Source of the DNA: Hippea sp.
Lineage (GTDB): Bacteria; Campylobacterota_A; Desulfurellia; Desulfurellales; Hippeaceae
Direction of reading: 5' to 3'
Assembly: GCA_015486705.1 (NCBI GenBank)
Contig: WFRG01000025.1
Coordinates: 1-7,323, forward strand
Length of the DNA stretch: 7,323 nt
Shown: positions 1-7,323 of the stretch, piece after piece
Position numbering within the stretch: position 1 is the stretch's first letter
Layout: each line of letters begins with the position of its first letter
Position numbers and translations under genes: made by a program
The notes under the pieces: model-generated
The model's input: the letters and a program-made list of their open reading frames with translations, nothing else
Database searches by the model: none
What the model was told of the DNA's origin: nothing

Positions 1-149
1 ATACACCCATAATTATGGTTACAACCGAAGCCGCCAAAGAGGATATCATAACCGCCCTTAAAGCCGGAGTTAACAACTACATAGTCAAACCATTTAAGCC
101 CGATGTTTTGAAAGATAAGATAGATACGGTTTTGGGTAAAAAAGATTAA
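1..149 (+). CDS. cheY: CheY-like chemotaxis response regulator, C-terminal fragment
   Basis: This is the last 49 codons of a receiver domain; the start lies outside the window and the first whole codon is at base 3. The peptide begins TPIIMVTTEAAKED and runs through ALKAGVNNYIVKPF to a TAA stop. The switch Thr of the beta-4 strand (codon 21-23) and the invariant Lys of the KPF motif (codon 87-89) are both present. The protein ends about 20 residues after KPF, as in single-domain CheY, so no output domain follows. Known CheY proteins carry the phosphorylation signal from CheA to the flagellar motor switch in the cytoplasm. A stand-alone CheY-like regulator with another partner cannot be excluded, because the phospho-acceptor Asp is not in view. 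The next gene starts 24 bases downstream, so the two may be co-transcribed. Confidence 0.9.
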   Translation, partial: TPIIMVTTEAAKEDIITALKAGVNNYIVKPFKPDVLKDKIDTVLGKKD

Positions 150-173
150 AAGTAATAAAAGGAGGTATAAGGT

Positions 174-608
174 ATGTCTATTTTTACTGATCCTACTTAT
201 CGGTATGATGAGGATTTGGAGTTTTTGGGGTATTTGAAGTCGGAAGATTTAAACGATTTGGTTCATATTCTAACTACTGACCCCTCTGACGGTGTCGGCA
301 GATTTTCAGAAGAACTAACGTCTAATCCTGATTACAAAAAATACTATCCTGATCATCATAAATATTGGAGAGCAATTGCCGCCGAGATACAGACTTTTGG
401 TGCAAACAGTATAGCTACTATATTTAGAGGAGGGGAAGGTGTTCTTTACAAAGAGGTTTTAACAGATGTTTGCGACAAATTGAAGGTTAACTACAACAAG
501 GATTCATCTATAGACACTATAGAAAACAATCTTTTTATGAAAGTTTTCACGGATGCCGTCAACTACCCCCGTCTAAAGACGAGAGCTTGTAAGGATGCTC
601 TATGTTGA
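174..608 (+). pseudogene. yaaW: YaaW-family protein (DUF3944/UPF0174), N-terminal half, interrupted
   Basis: The ATG has a strong GGAGG eight bases upstream (161-165). The first ~129 residues match the start of the YaaW/DUF3944 family as I know it: DEDLEFLGYL-SEDLNDLVHILT near the N-terminus, then HHKYWRAIAAEIQTFGANSIA, FRGGEGVLYKEVL and DVCDKLKVNYNKDSS. Family identity ends at about FTDAV (near base 560). The remaining ~15 residues (NYPRLKTRACKDALC) are not family-like and are read from the left end of the inserted element up to a chance stop. The C-terminal half lies at about 2135-2458. The cellular role of YaaW proteins is unknown; the family is linked loosely to a ubiquinol-cytochrome chaperone-like fold, and I would not assign a function. 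A truncated product could still be made, since the start and RBS are intact. Confidence 0.85.
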
Positions 609-811
609 CCAGGCTAAGTCGGTTAGACGACTACGTTAGGAACGAATACATAGGCACTCTGGGATGCTTCTCCAGTCCCGGACACTGCGGTAGGTGGTTA
701 AACAGGTCTAAGGGGTTAAGCTGGTGCTGCCTGCATATAAAACCGTTCCATAACATTGCCGAGGAGAGACCCCAACAATGGGGCGTAACAAGACCCGTAA
801 GGGTAAAGTTT
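547..811 (+). ncRNA. Omega RNA (HEARO-type guide RNA) for IscB
   Basis: IscB nucleases use a guide RNA encoded directly upstream of iscB, known earlier as the HEARO motif. Its 5' end takes in a guide of about 16 nt from outside the element's left end. The ~215 bases between the stop at 608 and the iscB start have no credible gene and contain several hairpins: 566-573/578-585; 617-621/628-632 (loop GTTAGA); 659-662/672-675; 770-773/780-783 (CCCC/GGGG); and 793-796/801-804 closed by GTAA, a GNRA-type tetraloop. The region ends right at the iscB ribosome binding site (812-818). The guide portion (about 547-562) would be yaaW sequence. Transcription probably comes from the upstream yaaW direction. 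The 5' and 3' ends are estimates and no covariance search was run. Confidence 0.72.
566..585 (+). repeat. Left-end subterminal hairpin of the IscB element
   Basis: The arms 566-573 and 578-585 close on the tetraloop TAAA (574-577). Six pairs are Watson-Crick and two (567 with 584, 569 with 582) are C.A mismatches. In IS200/IS605 elements such hairpins are read by the HUH transposase as single-stranded DNA; here the same bases would also form the first stem of the omega RNA scaffold. The two A residues of the 3' arm would restore a perfect stem if they were G. Confidence 0.6.
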
Positions 812-824
812 AAGGAGGTTAGTA

Positions 825-2120
825 GTGTCGGTTTTTGTGTTGGACAAGAAGAAACAGCCTTTAATGCCCTGCTCTGAGAAACGTGCAAGATTATTACTTG
901 AAAGAAACCGTGCTGTTGTTCATAAGGTTTATCCATTCACAATTAGACTTAAAGATAGAGTAGGTGGTAATATTCAACCAATTGAGTTAAAGGTTGACCC
1001 GGGAAGTAAAACGACAGGTATTGCTCTTGTGGCTAACTATCAAAGTGGCAGAAAAGTAGCCTTTGCCGCTAATCTTAATCATCGTGGACATAAAATTGCA
1101 AAAGTACTTCTTATTAGAAGGATGTATAGACGCAACAGAAGATACCGCAAGACCCGCTACCGCAAGCCACGTTTTCTCAACAGACGCAGACCCGAGGGGT
1201 GGCTTGCACCGTCAATTCAATCTCGTGTGGATAACGTATATACAATCGCAAAACGGTTGATTAGCCTTGCCCCTGTATCTGAGATTATGGTTGAGACAGT
1301 CAGGTTTGATACTCAAAAGCTACAAGACCCTGAAATTAACGGTATTCAGTATCAGCAAGGAACGCTTACGGGATATGAGGTGAGAGAATACCTGCTTGAA
1401 AAATGGAATCGCCAATGCGCTTATTGCGGAGCTAAGAATGTACCGCTTGAGATAGACCATATTATCCCGAAGTCGGCAGGTGGCTCTAACCGAATAAGCA
1501 ATCTAACGTTAGCTTGCCACTCCTGTAATCAAAAAAAGGGCAACCATTCTATTGAGGAGTTTATAAAAAATAAAAACGTGATCGAAAAAATCAAAGCCTA
1601 TGCGAGAACTCCTCTTAGGGATGCTGCGGTTATGAATTCTATACGGTATGCCGTAGGCAATACTCTTAAATCTTTTGGGTTGCCTGTGTCGTTTTTTTCC
1701 GGTGGCAGAACCAAATACAACAGAGTAAAACAAAACTTTCCGAAAGACCACTGGATTGATGCGGCTTGTGTCGGTAATACAGGAGAAAAAATCTTTATCC
1801 CTAAAGGAATTAGGCCTTTAATTATTACAGCGACAGGCAGAGGTTATCGCCAGATGTGTTATACCGATAAATATGGCTTTCCCAAATCATCACCTAAATC
1901 ACGAAAGATAGTTAAAGGCTTTATGACTGGCGATATTGTAAAAGCCGTAATCACCACAGGAAAAAATACAGGTGCGTATCTTGGAAGAATAGCTGTTAGA
2001 TCATCGGGTAGCTTTAAACTTAAAACAGTAAACGGGATAGTTGATGGTATCAGCTATAGGTTTTGTAAATTAATACAACGAGGGAATGGATATAACTATT
2101 CGTTCTCCTCACCCATTTAA
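825..2120 (+). CDS. iscB: IscB RNA-guided HNH/RuvC nuclease
   Basis: The 431-aa protein starts at GTG with AAGGAGG six bases upstream. The N-terminal PLMP-type domain shows QPLMPCSEKRARLLLERNRA. RuvC-I is KVDPGSKTTGIA, with catalytic Asp58. An Arg-rich bridge helix follows (about 97-122, RRMYRRNRRYRKTRYRK). RuvC-II is IMVETVRF with Glu157. The inserted HNH domain (about 195-240) has zinc pairs C198/C201 and C231/C234, the catalytic IDHI (His212), and N226 and N235. RuvC-III is DHWIDAACVG with His309 and Asp312. The C-terminal ~90 residues (GFMTGDIVKAV, GRIAVRSSGSF, SYRFCKL) are the target-adjacent-motif-interacting part. All catalytic residues are intact, so it is probably active. IscB proteins are omega-RNA-guided dsDNA endonucleases and the ancestors of Cas9; in transposons they are thought to help element retention by cutting the empty site. 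Its size and missing REC lobe exclude Cas9. The TAA stop sits in the right-end hairpin. Confidence 0.95.
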   Translation: MSVFVLDKKKQPLMPCSEKRARLLLERNRAVVHKVYPFTIRLKDRVGGNIQPIELKVDPGSKTTGIALVANYQSGRKVAFAANLNHRGHKIAKVLLIRRMYRRNRRYRKTRYRKPRFLNRRRPEGWLAPSIQSRVDNVYTIAKRLISLAPVSEIMVETVRFDTQKLQDPEINGIQYQQGTLTGYEVREYLLEKWNRQCAYCGAKNVPLEIDHIIPKSAGGSNRISNLTLACHSCNQKKGNHSIEEFIKNKNVIEKIKAYARTPLRDAAVMNSIRYAVGNTLKSFGLPVSFFSGGRTKYNRVKQNFPKDHWIDAACVGNTGEKIFIPKGIRPLIITATGRGYRQMCYTDKYGFPKSSPKSRKIVKGFMTGDIVKAVITTGKNTGAYLGRIAVRSSGSFKLKTVNGIVDGISYRFCKLIQRGNGYNYSFSSPI

Positions 2121-2129
2121 AAATGAGTG
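2110..2129 (+). repeat. Right-end subterminal hairpin of the IscB element
   Basis: The arms 2110-2117 and 2122-2129 close on the tetraloop TAAA (2118-2121). Seven pairs are Watson-Crick, with one C.A mismatch (2113 with 2126). The loop and stem length match the left-end hairpin. The iscB stop codon lies in the loop and the ATG of the downstream yaaW reading frame lies in the 3' arm. The element probably ends 5-7 bases further on. Confidence 0.6.
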
Positions 2130-2458
2130 CTTCCAAACGGATGATGGATCGTGAGTTTATAACACCCGAACTTTTAACATCAGGCGTTTTGTCTATCCTA
2201 AAAGCAGGCGGGTTTAAATCTTATCAAATTGTAATCACAATCGCTAACGCCATATATAAATCCCTGTTTGATAAGGGTTTATCGTTATTGGCAAACAGCA
2301 CTATTCCTAAAATACTCAACGTTGCTATCGGTCCGATAGGATGGGCTGTAACGATAATATGGACAACGATAGATGTTGCCGGTCCCGCATACAGAGTAAC
2401 TGTTCCAGCGGTATTTCTCGTTGCAGCGTTAAGAAAAAAATATAAAAGCAGATCCTAA
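2123..2458 (+). pseudogene. yaaW: YaaW-family protein (DUF3944/UPF0174), C-terminal half
   Basis: From about base 2135 this continues the gene that begins at 174. It reads KRMMDREFITPELL, then ILKAGGFKSYQ, a long hydrophobic stretch with GPIGWAVT, and the ending AGPAYRVTVPAVFLVAALRKK. The AYRVT-PAV ending closely resembles the C-terminus of E. coli YaaW as I recall it. The joined parts would give about 236 aa, near the usual family length. As it stands the frame opens at an ATG (2123) supplied by the right end of the element, with MSAS contributed by the element. There is no ribosome binding sequence before it, but the ATG lies two bases after the iscB stop, so translation by re-initiation is possible. 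The hydrophobic C-terminal half suggests membrane association. Its role is unknown. Confidence 0.85.
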
Positions 2459-2476
2459 AAAAGAAGGAGGTATTTT

Positions 2477-2830
2477 ATGAGTGATGTAGAAAAACAGAAG
2501 TCCTACGAGAATCTTAATCCTGAAACAAAAAGTCTTTTGCGCAGTGTAACAAAGTGGTCGTTGGAGTTCACGGGCATCATAGGTCTAATACTTATGACAC
2601 TTGGCGTTTTAATTACGTTTTTTGGCCCTTTAATAGCCACTGATATTAGCGGACAAATGGTTTATCCCTTCCTTGGTAAAATGATGGTCGGGATAGGAAT
2701 TTTCACTTTTGTGCAGGGTGTTATTCTTGTAGCCGCCAACGAGATTTTCAAGGCAATTCTCAGCATTGATGAGAGTATGAAAATCACTGTTTCTCTTTTA
2801 TCTCAGATAAAAGAATCACACGAAAAATAA
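2477..2830 (+). CDS. Small two-helix membrane protein, unknown function
   Basis: The 117-aa protein has an ideal start: AAGGAGG at 2464-2470, six bases before the ATG. The N-terminal ~30 residues are polar and cytoplasmic-looking. Two hydrophobic segments follow, at about 32-54 (TGIIGLILMTLGVLITFFGP) and 66-87 (LGKMMVGIGIFTFVQGVIL), joined by a short loop with TDISGQ. A charged amphipathic tail of about 30 residues (IFKAILSIDESMKITVSLLSQIKES) could pair with another helix. It begins 18 bases after the yaaW stop and would be co-transcribed with it. I do not recognise the family. The hairpin topology would place both termini on the same side of the membrane. The following genes also look membrane-related, which is the only hint of role. 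Confidence 0.8.
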   Translation: MSDVEKQKSYENLNPETKSLLRSVTKWSLEFTGIIGLILMTLGVLITFFGPLIATDISGQMVYPFLGKMMVGIGIFTFVQGVILVAANEIFKAILSIDESMKITVSLLSQIKESHEK

Positions 2831-2843
2831 AAGGGGGAAGTAA

Positions 2844-2881
2844 GCACTATCACTGTTCAATAAGATGGACGGTGGTGGTGC
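2844..2881 (+). other. Strong 16-bp RNA hairpin in the gap before the coiled-coil gene
   Basis: Bases 2844-2859 pair with 2866-2881 without a bulge, closing a 6-base loop (ATAAGA). Twelve pairs are Watson-Crick and four are G.U when read as + strand RNA (2848/2877, 2850/2875, 2854/2871, 2857/2868). As the reverse transcript these four would be A.C mismatches, so the fold favours the + strand RNA. No U-run follows (CAAAAAAG instead), so it is not a normal intrinsic terminator. A purine-rich GGGGGA sequence lies just before it and the ATG of the next gene 12 bases after it. It may control translation or mRNA processing of the downstream gene. Confidence 0.6.
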
Positions 2882-2893
2882 CAAAAAAGAATA

Positions 2894-3301
2894 ATGAAGA
2901 TACTGCGGAAAAAAGAACGAATAAACAAACTTAGATTATTTAATAAAGACAAACAAGAAAACGTAGAGCTTAATAGAAATTTAACGGAATGTCGGAAAGT
3001 TTTGGCGGAATATTTTGATGAACGGGACAGGCTAATGTCTTTTCTTGAAGAAAAGTTAAAAACCTGTAGAGAAATTGAAGACAGTATTGATAGGTTAAAA
3101 AAGATAGTTAGAGAAAAAAAACTAAAACATCTTCAAAATCTTGTTTCAAGTGAAGTACCTGCCGGCAGAATTACTAAGGAGATGAAAAAAGCCAACAGGC
3201 AGTTAATTTATTTTGAAGATATAAGTAATGAGGTATCAAAAATCGCAAATAGTTTAGAGTATGCAATCAAGAAAGGTAAAAATGCAAACGAAAGCATGTA
3301 G
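2894..3301 (+). CDS. Basic coiled-coil protein, unknown function
   Basis: The 135-aa protein is nearly all predicted helix and rich in Lys, Glu and Arg (MKILRKKERINKLRLFNKDK, then EYFDERDRLMSFLEEKLK, REIEDSIDRLKKIV and ISNEVSKIANSLEYAIKKGK). Two coiled-coil stretches (about 20-85 and 95-128) are separated by a break at VSSEVPAG. There is no signal peptide or membrane segment. The ATG has no ribosome binding sequence right before it; the nearest candidate (GGGGGA, about 2833-2838) is beyond the hairpin at 2844-2881. An in-frame stop at 2861 excludes an upstream start. The gene overlaps the start of the next one by 20 bases. A structural or partner protein for the neighbouring membrane proteins is possible. 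I do not recognise the family. Confidence 0.7.
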   Translation: MKILRKKERINKLRLFNKDKQENVELNRNLTECRKVLAEYFDERDRLMSFLEEKLKTCREIEDSIDRLKKIVREKKLKHLQNLVSSEVPAGRITKEMKKANRQLIYFEDISNEVSKIANSLEYAIKKGKNANESM

Positions 3302-4307
3302 TAGTCAATTTCCTTTAATACAATACAAAACGCCGACTAATATATTGCCATCGGTATTTTCCTTTTTAATTATTGCATTTTTAGTTGTTAGAGGTTTTAT
3401 TGGCGGGTTTAGTGTTTCTGTTAACTTGCTGCCTATTTTTGCAAATGTTCTTATTTTTCTCACGCTCGTTTGGTTTAAGCGATTGATAATTAAAGAAAAT
3501 AAGCAATTTAAAGGCAAAACGGTTTTATATACATTCATAGCATTTTTGGAATATCTCTATTTTACAAGTTTTATAGCTATGTTTATAGTTCTTGCTCAAT
3601 ATGGTGCTGTTTGGGGCAGAGAACTTATTTTTAATGACCATTTACTCTTAAAATTAGACGCCATTTTTATAGGTTTTAATTGGTATAAGTTTAATGCTTT
3701 AATCGTTTCAAGCAGTTTTTTAAGCACGGCTGTCATTCTTTTATACGATGCTTTATCCGCACTGCCCTTTATTTTGATATTCAGTTTAATTGTTTTTAAG
3801 AAAGAAGAAGAGATAATTCGTTTTTTGCTTTTTATGATAATAACAGGGGCTATAACGGTTTTTGTGTTTTATTTATATCCTGTTGTCGGTCCTGTTACTC
3901 CGAATATGCACATAAAAACACTTATAAATTTTTCATATCTTCCAACAATAGAGGCGGCATCAAGTAAAATAGGCACGTATTTATTCGGTATCCACTCTTT
4001 GGATGGTTTTCGTCAGGCATACGCGCGCCAAAATGTTTTTTACATGACGGGCGCTATATGCTTACCGTCTTATCACGCTGTGGAGGCAGCCGGGTTTGCT
4101 TATTTTATGAAAAATACAAATAAAACTCTCTTTTATACTTCTATTATACTAAGCATATTGATATGTATAGCAGCTATACCTATGGGTAATCACTATTTGG
4201 TGGATATAGTGGCAGGCGGGATTGTATCTTTAGTAGGTTTTTATTTAATTCCTCGGCTTGATTCCTTGACAGTCTTGAATAATCTTGCCAAATCTTTAAA
4301 AATTTGA
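3282..4307 (+). CDS. Multi-pass membrane PAP2-superfamily phosphatase/phosphotransferase
   Basis: I chose the ATG at 3282 because AAAGG lies five bases upstream; an earlier in-frame ATG at 3261 has no such site. This gives 341 aa. Hydrophobic segments fill most of the chain, about seven or more. Near the C-terminus are the PAP2 hallmarks: YPVVGPVTP, then LPSYHAVEAAG (His265, where PSGH is the usual form) and MGNHYLVDIVAGG (His304 and Asp308). The HYLVDIVAG pattern resembles the PAP2_3 branch, which includes inositol-phosphotransferase-like enzymes. The expected reaction is transfer or removal of a phosphate or phospho-head group on a lipid, with the active site facing the periplasm. The substrate is unknown. 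It overlaps the coiled-coil gene by 20 bases, implying one mRNA. The first motif (KX6RP) is not clear, so the catalytic type is uncertain. Confidence 0.82.
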   Translation: MQTKACSSQFPLIQYKTPTNILPSVFSFLIIAFLVVRGFIGGFSVSVNLLPIFANVLIFLTLVWFKRLIIKENKQFKGKTVLYTFIAFLEYLYFTSFIAMFIVLAQYGAVWGRELIFNDHLLLKLDAIFIGFNWYKFNALIVSSSFLSTAVILLYDALSALPFILIFSLIVFKKEEEIIRFLLFMIITGAITVFVFYLYPVVGPVTPNMHIKTLINFSYLPTIEAASSKIGTYLFGIHSLDGFRQAYARQNVFYMTGAICLPSYHAVEAAGFAYFMKNTNKTLFYTSIILSILICIAAIPMGNHYLVDIVAGGIVSLVGFYLIPRLDSLTVLNNLAKSLKI

Positions 4308-4313
4308 TATAAT
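4285..4313 (+). promoter_or_regulatory. Sigma70-type promoter for the lipoprotein gene
   Basis: TTGCCA (4285-4290) and a perfect TATAAT (4308-4313) are separated by exactly 17 bases. The start of transcription would be near 4320, leaving a leader of about 50 bases before the ATG at 4370. The promoter overlaps the last codons of the membrane phosphatase gene, separating the lipoprotein from the upstream genes. Confidence 0.65.
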
Positions 4314-4369
4314 ATTAGTGTCTTGGGACGGGGAAAACTTGTAAAAAACTTTATGTTTAGGAGGTTTTT

Positions 4370-5941
4370 ATGCCAAAGATCAAGAGTCTGGCGAGTATTT
4401 TTGTGGTTTTCTTTGTTGCATTCTATCTTTATTCCTGCGGCGGCGGGGGCGGTTCAAGTTCAACACCTTCAGGCGGTAATACTCCTATTATCCATGGTGG
4501 AAATGGTGGAAATGGTGGAAATAATGCAGGCGGAGGTAATGGTTCGGGTTCAGGTAATTCAGGATCAAATGGAAACTCAGGAACAAGCGGCTCAGGTAAT
4601 TCTTCTTATAGCGGATCATCGTCCTCAAAGTTCACCGTTCAACCCGGAAACTGCGATATAAACAATTTCCAATGGGCAGGAACGATAACCGGCAAGGACG
4701 TTAAAATAGATGGGAAAGTCTATTATAGTGTCCCCGAAGATGCCATATACGAGATTGATACAGAATTCGATAATACTACATACAAAACGTCTTATTTAAC
4801 GAAAAGGATTACTATAAGTGACACAAGTTCAGATATTCAGCCTATAACTTGGCTAAATGAAAAGTTAAATAATATAAATGACAGTGTTGATTTTGGTTAT
4901 GGGGATTTCTTCCAAAATTGTGCATTAGTAAACAAACATTTTTATTTCTTCCGATATGATACCGCAGATTCTTCATCCGACAGTCCTGTTACGGTTATGT
5001 ATAATGTTAATTTGGCAACTGAGTCTGTCGATAATTCTTCGCTTATCGGATATAAAATAGGCAGTTATAATGACCTTCAGTTCACTACTCAAAGCACAGG
5101 GTCTCTTGGTTCGGATTACGATAATAAAAAGTTGCTTATTAGTATGTTCAGCACTTTGGGAAATTATGATGCATCAGGAGAGCTTGCTTACGGTGAAACA
5201 AATACGGTTTACGGCATCAACACAAATGACAATAGTGTTACTAAAACCCCTTTATATTCTATTGGCGGTCCTGTAACTCATTACTTACAGCCGTTTACAG
5301 AGGCTAACGGCTATCTTTATTCATCGGGCATAGACAGCAACGGCAATTCCGTCTTTAATATTATAGATGAAAAAAATGATGAGCTTGTTAAGTCTGTAGG
5401 GTTAGACTTTTTCTTGAACAGCGACAATTCATCTACGAAAAATTATTTATTTTTCTCATACGGCAGGGCGGTTGCCTCGTATGATGGCAATTATGTTTAT
5501 GTTCCTGTTCTTGTTGTATCCGATAAAGAATACTATTCGTTCTTGCTTAAAGTGGATACAGCTACAAACACCCTAAGCGCTATTGGTGTTTATGCGATAA
5601 ACGGGTGGTATATCGCTGATATAGCTGTTTCACCTGACGGAAAGTATGTTTATGTTATGAATAGTATAGAACCAAACCCCGGGTATATGGAAATGACGGT
5701 TATAAACACTCAAACACTTACCCAAAAAGCATTTAAAGTTGAGATTCCATATTCCAATAAACAAATGTATTTAATGTATCAGACCTTTTACATCACAAGC
5801 GGAATGGGTATGGGATTAGAGATTAGCAAGGACGGAAAATATCTATACGCACCAATATTATTGGAAAGTGGACAGAATGGTGATAGTGACAGTTATGTAA
5901 TTAAACTTAACACAGATACCCTTATTAACTCGGTTCAGTAA
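4370..5941 (+). CDS. Secreted lipoprotein with Gly/Ser/Asn stalk and predicted beta-propeller domain
   Basis: The 523-aa protein starts five bases after AGGAGG (4359-4364). The N-terminus is a lipoprotein signal: MPKIK, a hydrophobic core, then LYSC with Cys23 as the expected lipidated residue; Tyr at -2 is a little unusual. Residues 24-86 are a flexible stalk of Gly, Ser and Asn. The remainder (~87-523) is rich in beta strands, Tyr, Asp and Asn. It has repeated blade-like motifs: SYDGNYVYVPV (from 370), SPDGKYVYVMN (from 421) and SKDGKYLYAPIL (from 486), each followed by a strand ending in a D/N-T-T/L pattern. These resemble YVTN/YncE-like propeller blades. It is probably anchored in the outer membrane and may bind a surface or cell-wall ligand. 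There are no catalytic motifs I can name. It has its own promoter and terminator. Confidence 0.85.
   Translation: MPKIKSLASIFVVFFVAFYLYSCGGGGGSSSTPSGGNTPIIHGGNGGNGGNNAGGGNGSGSGNSGSNGNSGTSGSGNSSYSGSSSSKFTVQPGNCDINNFQWAGTITGKDVKIDGKVYYSVPEDAIYEIDTEFDNTTYKTSYLTKRITISDTSSDIQPITWLNEKLNNINDSVDFGYGDFFQNCALVNKHFYFFRYDTADSSSDSPVTVMYNVNLATESVDNSSLIGYKIGSYNDLQFTTQSTGSLGSDYDNKKLLISMFSTLGNYDASGELAYGETNTVYGINTNDNSVTKTPLYSIGGPVTHYLQPFTEANGYLYSSGIDSNGNSVFNIIDEKNDELVKSVGLDFFLNSDNSSTKNYLFFSYGRAVASYDGNYVYVPVLVVSDKEYYSFLLKVDTATNTLSAIGVYAINGWYIADIAVSPDGKYVYVMNSIEPNPGYMEMTVINTQTLTQKAFKVEIPYSNKQMYLMYQTFYITSGMGMGLEISKDGKYLYAPILLESGQNGDSDSYVIKLNTDTLINSVQ
4496..4522 (+). repeat. Three tandem copies of a 9-bp repeat (GGTGGAAAT) in the lipoprotein stalk
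   Basis: Three identical 9-bp units encode Gly-Gly-Asn three times. Gain or loss of a unit by slippage would keep the frame and change only the stalk length, in three-residue steps. Confidence 0.85.
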
Positions 5942-5977
5942 TGTTAATTATCTCTTCTTCTTTTTATGTATATTTCA

Positions 5978-6008
5978 AGCACCTCATTTCTTTTTGGGGT
6001 GCTTTTTT
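5978..6008 (+). terminator. Intrinsic terminator after the lipoprotein gene
   Basis: The stem AGCACCTC (5978-5985) pairs with GGGGTGCT (5996-6003), 8 bp with one G.U, over a 10-base loop. A run of T residues follows, to 6008. It lies 36 bases after the stop codon and has the classic form for + strand transcripts. Confidence 0.85.
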
Positions 6009-6104
6009 GCCCGATTTCGCTTAATACGTCGCCGTGGTGAGCCGTTTTAGGTCTCATTCGACTAATTGGTCAAATGAACTAAAAAACGAGCAAAATCGGG
6101 CAAA
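6006..6104. repeat. 99-bp inverted-repeat structured element in the intergenic gap
   Basis: The arms 6006-6020 and 6090-6104 (TTTGCCCGATTT.GC and its complement) match at 14 of 15 positions, and one more base pairs inside. Within lies a second inverted repeat (6054-6062 with 6069-6077). The one non-matching position in each stem is C opposite A on the + strand, which becomes a G.U pair in a - strand RNA. No open reading frame fits inside. It could be a minus-strand small RNA, a miniature terminal-inverted-repeat element, or a protein-binding or processing site. No convincing target duplication flanks it. The left arm begins in the T-run of the terminator. Confidence 0.6.
6054..6077. promoter_or_regulatory. 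Inner palindrome, possible operator or hairpin
   Basis: The arms TCATTCGAC and GTCAAATGA are 9 bases each, matching at 8 positions, separated by TAATTG. It lies about 110 bases before a gene for a protein with two helix-turn-helix repeats, so it could be that protein's binding site. It could equally be only the inner arm of the larger structure at 6006-6104. The bases from 6105 to 6184 hold two ACAAAAAAA tracts 12 bases apart (6124-6132, 6136-6144) and TATATA (6148-6153), a possible but poorly defined promoter. Confidence 0.35.
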
Positions 6105-6184
6105 TTAATCAGTTAATTCACATACAAAAAAAGTGACAAAAAAACGTTATATAAGAGAGGCGAAAAAAAAGAAAGGAGGTAAAT

Positions 6185-6805
6185 ATGCACTCTCTTTCTG
6201 AGGACGAAAAGGTCCGCATAGCGAATGATTATTTTAACGGGGCAACCTATAAGGATTTAATAAAAAAGTATAGATGTGGTTCCGGAACTCTTCATAAAGC
6301 GTTATCTACTTTTAAAGCCGATTGGTTCGATTTAGACGAGATAAAAAAAGAACGTAAAAAAGAAAAAAAGATAAAACTGCCTGACAATATAGAACAAATA
6401 GCGCGGGATTTCAAAAATGGTACATATTACGACAAACTTCAAGAGAAATACGGGTATAAACACTACCAATTACGCAATTTCTTTATGACATTTAAAGCCG
6501 ATTGGTTCGATTTCAAGAGTATAAGCAAAGATCATTCAAAGCGTAATCGAGCAAATAACAAACATTTAAAACAAGATGGCAGTGTTTACTTAAACTTTTT
6601 AAATACATTGAAATCTTGTGGTCTAACTGACGCCGAAAGCTGGGCGGTAATGAATTTTATAATCAAGAAATCTAATGATAGTGCAGGTTTTTGTTTTGAC
6701 GAATTAACAAATCAAGAGGCGGTAAGCCGTATTATAGAAAAAATAAAAATACAATCGCTAAAAACCGTTTTTATATCAGCAATTAGCAGGAGGGGTGATT
6801 CGTGA
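6185..6805 (+). CDS. Protein with two tandem helix-turn-helix-like repeats, probable DNA-binding
   Basis: The 206-aa protein has AAAGGAGG (6172-6179) five bases before its ATG. Residues 5-53 and 66-113 are two copies of one ~50-residue unit. Each starts with a helix (EKVRIANDYFNG / NIEQIARDFKNG), continues with a helix-turn-helix-like segment (TYKDLIKKYRCGSGTLHKAL / TYYDKLQEKYGYKHYQLRNF), and closes with the identical octamer TFKADWFD. The units resemble the homeodomain-like HTH of resolvases and transposase-associated proteins. A highly basic linker (KKERKKEKKIK) joins them. The C-terminal third (from ~120) is a separate helical region (YLNFLNTLKSCGLTDAESWAVMNF) that I do not recognise. The likely role is sequence-specific DNA binding, for instance as regulator of its own operon or a phage-type replication or partition factor. 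Its stop overlaps the next start (GTGA). Confidence 0.75.
   Translation: MHSLSEDEKVRIANDYFNGATYKDLIKKYRCGSGTLHKALSTFKADWFDLDEIKKERKKEKKIKLPDNIEQIARDFKNGTYYDKLQEKYGYKHYQLRNFFMTFKADWFDFKSISKDHSKRNRANNKHLKQDGSVYLNFLNTLKSCGLTDAESWAVMNFIIKKSNDSAGFCFDELTNQEAVSRIIEKIKIQSLKTVFISAISRRGDS
6311..6513 (+). repeat. Exact 23-bp direct repeat inside the HTH gene (6311-6333 and 6491-6513)
   Basis: The two copies are identical at every base, including synonymous positions, and exactly 180 bases (60 codons) apart. They encode FKADWFD and the flanking bases of each HTH unit. The rest of the two units has diverged much more. Confidence 0.9.
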
Positions 6806-7161
6806 AAATAGTATATATTTCTCATCCTATTAAGGGTGATAAAGCGGGCAATATAGAAAAGATAATAAAAATAGTCCGTTCAATAAACCTATTTTTGCCT
6901 GATATAGTGCCTTTAACAAACTATATAGCCGACTGTTTGGCGTTAAACGATGATGTCAAGGAAGAGCGTGATAAAGGACTATCAAACGATGAAGCCATAC
7001 TTCAAAGCGGCATCGTTGATGAGCTTTGGGTTTTTGGTAATGAAATAAGTGATGGTATGCGTATAGAAATAGATGTTGCTCAAAAGATAGGTATTCCTGT
7101 TAGATATTTTGCAAATCAAGATTTTATCAAAAAAGAAAAAGGAGGTAGTAATGCTTTCTAA
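6802..7161 (+). CDS. DUF4406-like (nucleoside 2-deoxyribosyltransferase-like) protein
   Basis: The 119-aa protein starts at GTG, eight bases after AGGAGG (6788-6793), overlapping the previous stop by the shared GTGA. The N-terminus MKIVYISHPIKGD and the C-terminal block SGIVDELWVFGNEISDGMRIEIDVAQKIGIPVRYF are typical of DUF4406-type small proteins with a Rossmann-like fold, related to nucleoside 2-deoxyribosyltransferases. These occur often in phages and prophages. Glu89 in GMRIEIDVA is at the place of the catalytic Glu of true deoxyribosyltransferases. The middle (NYIADCLALNDDVKEERDKGLS) matches the family pattern of a charged loop before the second half. The substrate, probably a nucleoside or nucleotide, is unknown, and enzyme activity is inference. 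It overlaps the next gene by 11 bases. Confidence 0.78.
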   Translation: MKIVYISHPIKGDKAGNIEKIIKIVRSINLFLPDIVPLTNYIADCLALNDDVKEERDKGLSNDEAILQSGIVDELWVFGNEISDGMRIEIDVAQKIGIPVRYFANQDFIKKEKGGSNAF

Positions 7162-7323
7162 AATTTTTCAAAAGGAAAAAGCTGTGGACATAGATGATGT
7201 AAAAATACTGAGAAATTCAAGGCATTTTAATCAAATTACGATAGAAGACGAAAAAGAAAAGAACACGTATATTTTTTTAGAGTCTTTTTTTAATGGTTAC
7301 GCATTTGTTTTCATACTTAATAT
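7151..7323 (+). CDS. Start of an unknown protein, cut by the window edge
   Basis: An ATG at 7151 has AAGGAGG (7139-7145) five bases upstream and stays open to the end of the window for 57 codons: MLSKIFQKEK, then DIDDVKILRNSRHFNQITIEDEKEKN, then a hydrophobic stretch YIFLESFFNGYAFVFILN. It overlaps the previous gene by 11 bases and is translationally coupled to it. I do not recognise it. The good ribosome binding site makes a real gene likely. Confidence 0.7.
   Translation, partial: MLSKIFQKEKAVDIDDVKILRNSRHFNQITIEDEKEKNTYIFLESFFNGYAFVFILN

Follow-up and report, generated by a model that had tools for sequence, protein, structure and literature searches.

Sequence comparison places an IscB/HEARO element inside a DUF3944/PF03981 gene of Hippea sp. 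that lacks about 20 codons beside it

The window, meaning the whole stretch of DNA analysed here, is the 7,323 nt at positions 1-7,323 (forward strand) of Hippea sp. contig WFRG01000025.1 (GCA_015486705.1). Near its start lies a complete, ordinary RNA-guided mobile element made up of IscB and its guide RNA, flanked by the two parts of what sequence comparison identifies as one split gene of the DUF3944/PF03981 family (YaaW-like, UPF0174). The features are as follows.

174-557, + strand: N-terminal host-gene piece (DUF3944, PF13099, 48.1 bits), ending at A128 of the relative P0001 (tblastn with P0001)
538-557, + strand: presumed guide segment of the omega RNA, in the host DNA that adjoins the scaffold on its 5' side (placed by its position 5' of HEARO base 1)
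558-773, + strand: full-length HEARO/omega RNA scaffold (RF02033, 137.3 bits, E 2.2e-29, model 1-211 of 211)
825-2120, + strand: iscB, open frame of 431 aa with a GTG start (NCBIfam guided_IscB NF040563, 457.5 bits)
2110-2129, + strand: imperfect, weak right-end hairpin overlapping the iscB stop codon (DNA fold)
558-2150, + strand: IscB/HEARO (ISC-type) element in its most likely extent, 1593 bp (left-end and right-end rules from relatives)
558-2140, + strand: alternative extent of the element, 1583 bp, with ATGA at 2141-2144
2151-2154, + strand: GTGA, the target motif if the element ends where is most likely (right-end comparison; NTGA is the DtIsrB motif)
2153-2458, + strand: C-terminal host-gene piece, beginning at E150 of P0001 and including the stop (tblastn with P0001)

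The full-length HEARO RNA and the IscB found between the two halves bear out the initial annotation, which had an IscB-omega RNA element interrupting a YaaW-family gene. The IscB scores well above the curated NF040563 cut-off of 175 bits, a profile scan of the window proteins placed PF14239 (RRXRR) and HNH domains in it, and the solved structures that it matches at the sequence level are IscB chains (PDB). Its closest listed relatives, the window's own protein aside, are 64% identical (120 listed of 7999 scored), and a survey for HEARO RNA found matches in 4/247 and 1/249 genomes of two phyla. No transposase profile was matched among the nine window proteins scanned. Furthermore, a simple promoter scan of the + strand found no sigma-70-like site upstream of the HEARO RNA, so this RNA may be transcribed as part of the host-gene transcript.

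Elsewhere in the window, the C-terminal end of a response-regulator receiver domain (3-146; PF00072, 36.7 bits) is encoded just upstream of the host gene. Positions 3261-4307 encode a PAP2-type membrane protein (PF14378) for which the protein search gave no more than four homologues (E <= 0.001), perhaps because the lineage is poorly sampled; the homologue P0241, on another contig, is 99% identical. A GCACC...GGGTGC stem with a T run (5974-6010) follows a 523-aa glycine/serine-rich ORF and appears terminator-like by eye, while the 206-aa protein of 6185-6805 carries the segment FKADWFD repeated twice and its ORF has a four-base overlap with that of a DUF7768 protein (6802-7161; PF24963).

The host gene was compared with P0001, an uninterrupted relative of 250 aa that came from the protein search and whose source is one 817-base contig. 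tblastn aligned P0001 residues 1-129 with window 174-560 (97.7% identity) and residues 150-250 with 2153-2455 (96.0%), confirming the earlier view that the halves are the N- and C-terminal parts of one protein; overall identity is 95% by alignment and 89% by BLASTP, the query in both being the 557/2123 join. The bases GTC at 558-560 are readable as V129, yet they are the first three bases of the HEARO RNA. Against NCBIfam NF007593 (PRK10236, labelled acidic protein MsyB) the two pieces score 64.4 and 19.9 bits, with a cut-off of 395. Since both pieces are stop-free and 96-98% identical to P0001, the interruption looks recent.

By the same comparison, about 20 host codons are absent beside the element. 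P0001 residues 130-149 found no counterpart in the window by tblastn, and the 21-residue segment searched against the window gave chance-level matches only (best E 2.8), so a location of these codons elsewhere in it was rejected. The stretch from A128 to T153 was examined in 120 listed homologues, of 925 above threshold, and is 26 residues long in 111, 25 in seven, 28 in one and 23 in one; the 557/2141 join has nine residues there. Three homologues from named genome records (Citrobacter, Helicobacter and a Desulfovibrio MAG) also contain the missing stretch. It had been claimed that nothing of the host gene was lost; residues 130-149, absent here though 120/120 listed homologues have the corresponding stretch, contradict this, and aligning homologues over the junction leaves many residues missing. 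From the protein comparison, the loss amounts to 58-61 nt if the element ends at 2150 or to a net 51 nt (17 codons) if it ends at 2140. Close DNA of the intact allele was not found: genome contigs gave three loci at 48-54% and viral contigs none, and plasmids gave at most 57.7%. The host gene is a broken member of the DUF3944/PF03981 family, in which the two Pfam domains do not occur in one protein: DUF3944 sits on the N-terminal piece, and PF03981, which scores 40.7 bits in P0001 (61-234), scores 20.9 in the 557/2141 join, below the cut-off of 21.5 and for the first part only.

The ends of the element were placed with the help of relatives. On the left, all 13 HEARO copies inspected start with GTCA at model position 1 and their flanks to the left are unlike; these were 13 of the 16 copies on four plasmids, three weak copies being left out, and the placement at HEARO base 1 rests partly on a model that itself begins there. 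On the right, 29 ends were inspected (13 from the plasmid HEARO set, those of L038 and L040, and 14 more), and in the 23 that were tabulated [AG]TGA lies 14-25 nt past a hairpin, as ATGA in 18 and GTGA in five; the tails were picked by eye, with a three-base ambiguity in a few (ATGATGA, GTGATGA) and a GTGA already at 13 nt in that of L069. Three Allochromatium copies that otherwise closely resemble one another lose similarity right after their common ATGA. Six right ends stand outside the table: L011 has a stop inside its IscB and no ATGA, in L072 and L074 no motif stands out, and in L066, L048 and L075 ATGA follows a long hairpin at a distance of about 4-6 nt (by eye), so that short spacings do exist where the right end is built differently. 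This end rule, HEARO base 1 on the left and ATGA/GTGA on the right, is useful for placing such ends elsewhere.

The window offers two candidates under this rule, GTGA at 21 nt from its hairpin and ATGA at 11 nt, of which the former falls within the range of the 23 tabulated relatives and the latter outside it; with L066, L048 and L075 counted in, 11 nt is no longer outside. The hairpin itself is weak: its fold (2103-2136) has -2.0 kcal/mol, a value equalled by 19 of 200 shuffles, and it is absent from the minimum-energy fold of the longer stretch 2085-2165. Host homology picks up at E150 (2153), two bases into GTGA at 2151-2154, and S149, represented here like the lost host bases by the P0001 protein sequence, would provide the GT of this motif if its codon is AGT; AGT is the most frequent serine codon in eight coding stretches of the window (36/147). 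For DtIsrB, of a related family, the adjacent motif is NTGA, and for other IsrB proteins NTG or NTGG, according to the available part of PMC9581776. The right end of the element is thus placed most likely at 2150, with GTGA at 2151. A boundary at 557/2123 was rejected, as its edge would fall inside the right-end hairpin. A 7-base direct repeat, ACGGATG, was seen by eye at 549-555 and 2137-2143, close to both edges of the element.

The ATG or GTG of the target motif opens a frame of at least 60 codons at 15 of the 29 IscB right ends (L007, L010, L012, L013, L014, L019, L020, L021, L038, L040, L047, L048, L066, L067 and L068), namely at 10/15 in one right-end set and 5/14 in the other, the ATGA background in the loci of the 15-end set being 68/186. 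In eight of these cases the next gene is annotated as starting at this codon (L007, L008/L013, L038, L040, L047, L048, L066 and L068). Elements also lie between parA and parB on plasmids of two phyla (Trichormus and Deinococcus). On a Geoalkalibacter plasmid (L017, L019) the right end of the element carries a GGAGGT-like stretch shortly before the ATGA, resembling a ribosome-binding site supplied by the element, and the ATG opens 53 and 214 codons, respectively.

Two relatives could be compared with empty sites. The Trichormus element (L040, HEARO start at 2257) reads CAACT/GTCAG...TTTTGT/ATGAGCC where Aulosira (L049) reads CAACT/ATGAGCC, the scan placing the equivalent junction one base leftward, with 3 mismatches in 120 bases; three further loci (L050, L051 and L052) carry the same uninterrupted CAACTATGA as the Aulosira empty site. 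Similarly, P. veronii L038 has lost no host bases relative to L042 and has four extra (ATGA); the empty site sits in a ATGAATGA stretch that L043-L045 carry uninterrupted. These alignments indicate no host loss at the two testable sites, while for four further plasmid elements no related record joining both flanks was found, one-sided matches being left out. As to precision of insertion, the two relatives' sites are without loss and the window is now without some of its host DNA.

The initial annotation had also proposed an empty site by joining 560 to 2135 or 562 to 2137, with precise insertion and no host loss. Both joins are indeed in frame, but the coordinates did not hold. The missing stretch is present in all 120 listed homologues, contradicting the reading FTDAVKRMMDREFITPEL that such a site implies for a homologue, and by the relatives' rule 2135-2140 or 2135-2150 is the element's own right-end sequence, so that the 560/2135 join would retain 16 bases of element DNA if the end is 2150 and six if it is 2140. 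Both joins were rejected on these grounds; with junction coordinates and no-loss claim both wrong, so is the reconstructable empty site, and precise insertion without loss is extremely improbable. The accompanying statement that no target duplication was made does agree with the window, where none is apparent. An appealing, clean in-frame empty site can evidently arise from a junction set inside the element's own end.

Taking together what is observed, namely the element's RNA and protein, the identity of the host gene, its missing codons and the absence of loss at two other sites, the explanation that we favour, as reasonably probable though well short of assured, is an element at 558-2150, host loss on its left side and a doubly broken gene. 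An ISC-type element (HEARO omega RNA and IscB) would have inserted into the DUF3944/PF03981 gene immediately 5' of GTGA, pointing the same way as the gene and presumably mobilised by a Y1 transposase acting in trans, and IscB would, as its family suggests, draw its guide from the host sequence to the left of base 558. An end at 2150 puts the loss on the left side, adjoining the element's first base, and 58-61 nt of host sequence (P0001 residues 130-149) would have gone from this guide-encoding side, probably at or soon after insertion, given two open host pieces with 96-98% identity to the intact relative, although the loss may have come before, with or after it. The host gene would thus be broken twice, by insertion and by deletion, and precise excision would not repair it. 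Joining 557 to 2151 is out of frame and meets a stop within a few codons, joining 557 to 2141 is in frame, and from the sequence neither excision would restore the relatives' protein; with about 20 codons missing beside the element, the host gene is not regained by removing it.

An end at 2140, before the ATGA at 2141, is an unlikely but serious competitor. The host piece would then start ATGATGGATCGTGAG, with an in-frame net loss of 51 nt (17 codons) to which both sides may have contributed, and the intact allele would read ATGATGGATC at this place. ATGA is the commoner motif (18/23 tabulated right ends), the three right ends with a long hairpin outside the table have ATGA about 4-6 nt past it by eye, and the in-frame 557/2141 join, the weak hairpin and the choice of tails by eye all speak against 2150. 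Meanwhile, the 11 nt spacing is shorter than any in the 23 tabulated relatives (14-25 nt), and MMDR fits little of P0001's 21 residues VEKMTDEEIKELGINLGFEKS in a gene that is 96-98% identical in the remainder. Whichever end is right, the host allele may have been deleted already, as a decayed or shortened gene, before the element inserted precisely. This differs in the order of events and overlaps both the favoured explanation and the end at 2140; it would account for a junction that exactly adjoins the canonical left end and for the lack of loss at the two sites with empty relatives. We regard it as possible but doubtful, as no such deletion occurs in the 120 listed homologues (of 925 above threshold) and an end at 2150 would leave the empty allele with a frameshift, whereas the two pieces otherwise keep an open frame and closely resemble P0001. 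Misassembly is common at mobile elements, and a chimaeric contig arising at such a repeat was also considered; it is very improbable, given that the two flanks form one gene in the right order, each 96-98% identical to a single relative, and that the best listed relative of this IscB, the window's own protein aside, is 64% identical (120 listed of 7999 scored).

If the favoured end at 2150 is correct, the loss could bear on what the element recognises. The 5' spacer of HEARO RNA has been reprogrammed, and the IsrB complex uses a 20-nt guide, according to the available parts of PMC9755519 and PMC9581776, respectively. Because the guide of IscB is read from host DNA at the left end, a deletion there would rewrite it. 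Past the guide-matching stretch, the intact allele would read G-T-N-G (codons V129 and E130 of P0001). This does not fit NTGA, so that, if an NTGA rule applies, the present guide is not expected to match the intact allele next to the motif, and it may no longer match that allele; under an NTG or NTGG rule the intact allele would be recognisable if the V129 codon is GTG. The fuller proposal, that the deletion rewrote the guide so that this copy no longer recognises the intact allele under the NTGA rule, and that left-flank deletions are a general escape or retargeting route, is very improbable, but were it true, flank loss on the guide side may alter what an IscB element recognises. Among the literature matches listed, deletions beside IscB elements appear in none of the titles and abstract beginnings, and the YaaW/DUF3944 matches listed contain, as far as their available text goes, nothing on this site.

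Element and host gene both belong to known families. The window gene shares the N-terminal DUF3944 with the DUF3944/PF03981 (YaaW, UPF0174) family, whereas the allele in the window is split in two, with about 20 codons missing from its middle. ISC elements that combine IscB with HEARO/omega RNA have reportedly been described by Weinberg (2009), Kapitonov (2016) and Altae-Tran (2021). The window element has in common with them a full-length HEARO RNA, an IscB above its cut-off, the guide side on the left, no transposase profile among the scanned window proteins and, less clearly, a hairpin close to the right end followed by ATGA/GTGA; RNA-guided cleavage and Y1 mobilisation are predicted for it from its family. 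It differs from them in the weakness of its right-end hairpin and in the host DNA missing beside its left end, which is intact at the two sites with empty relatives.
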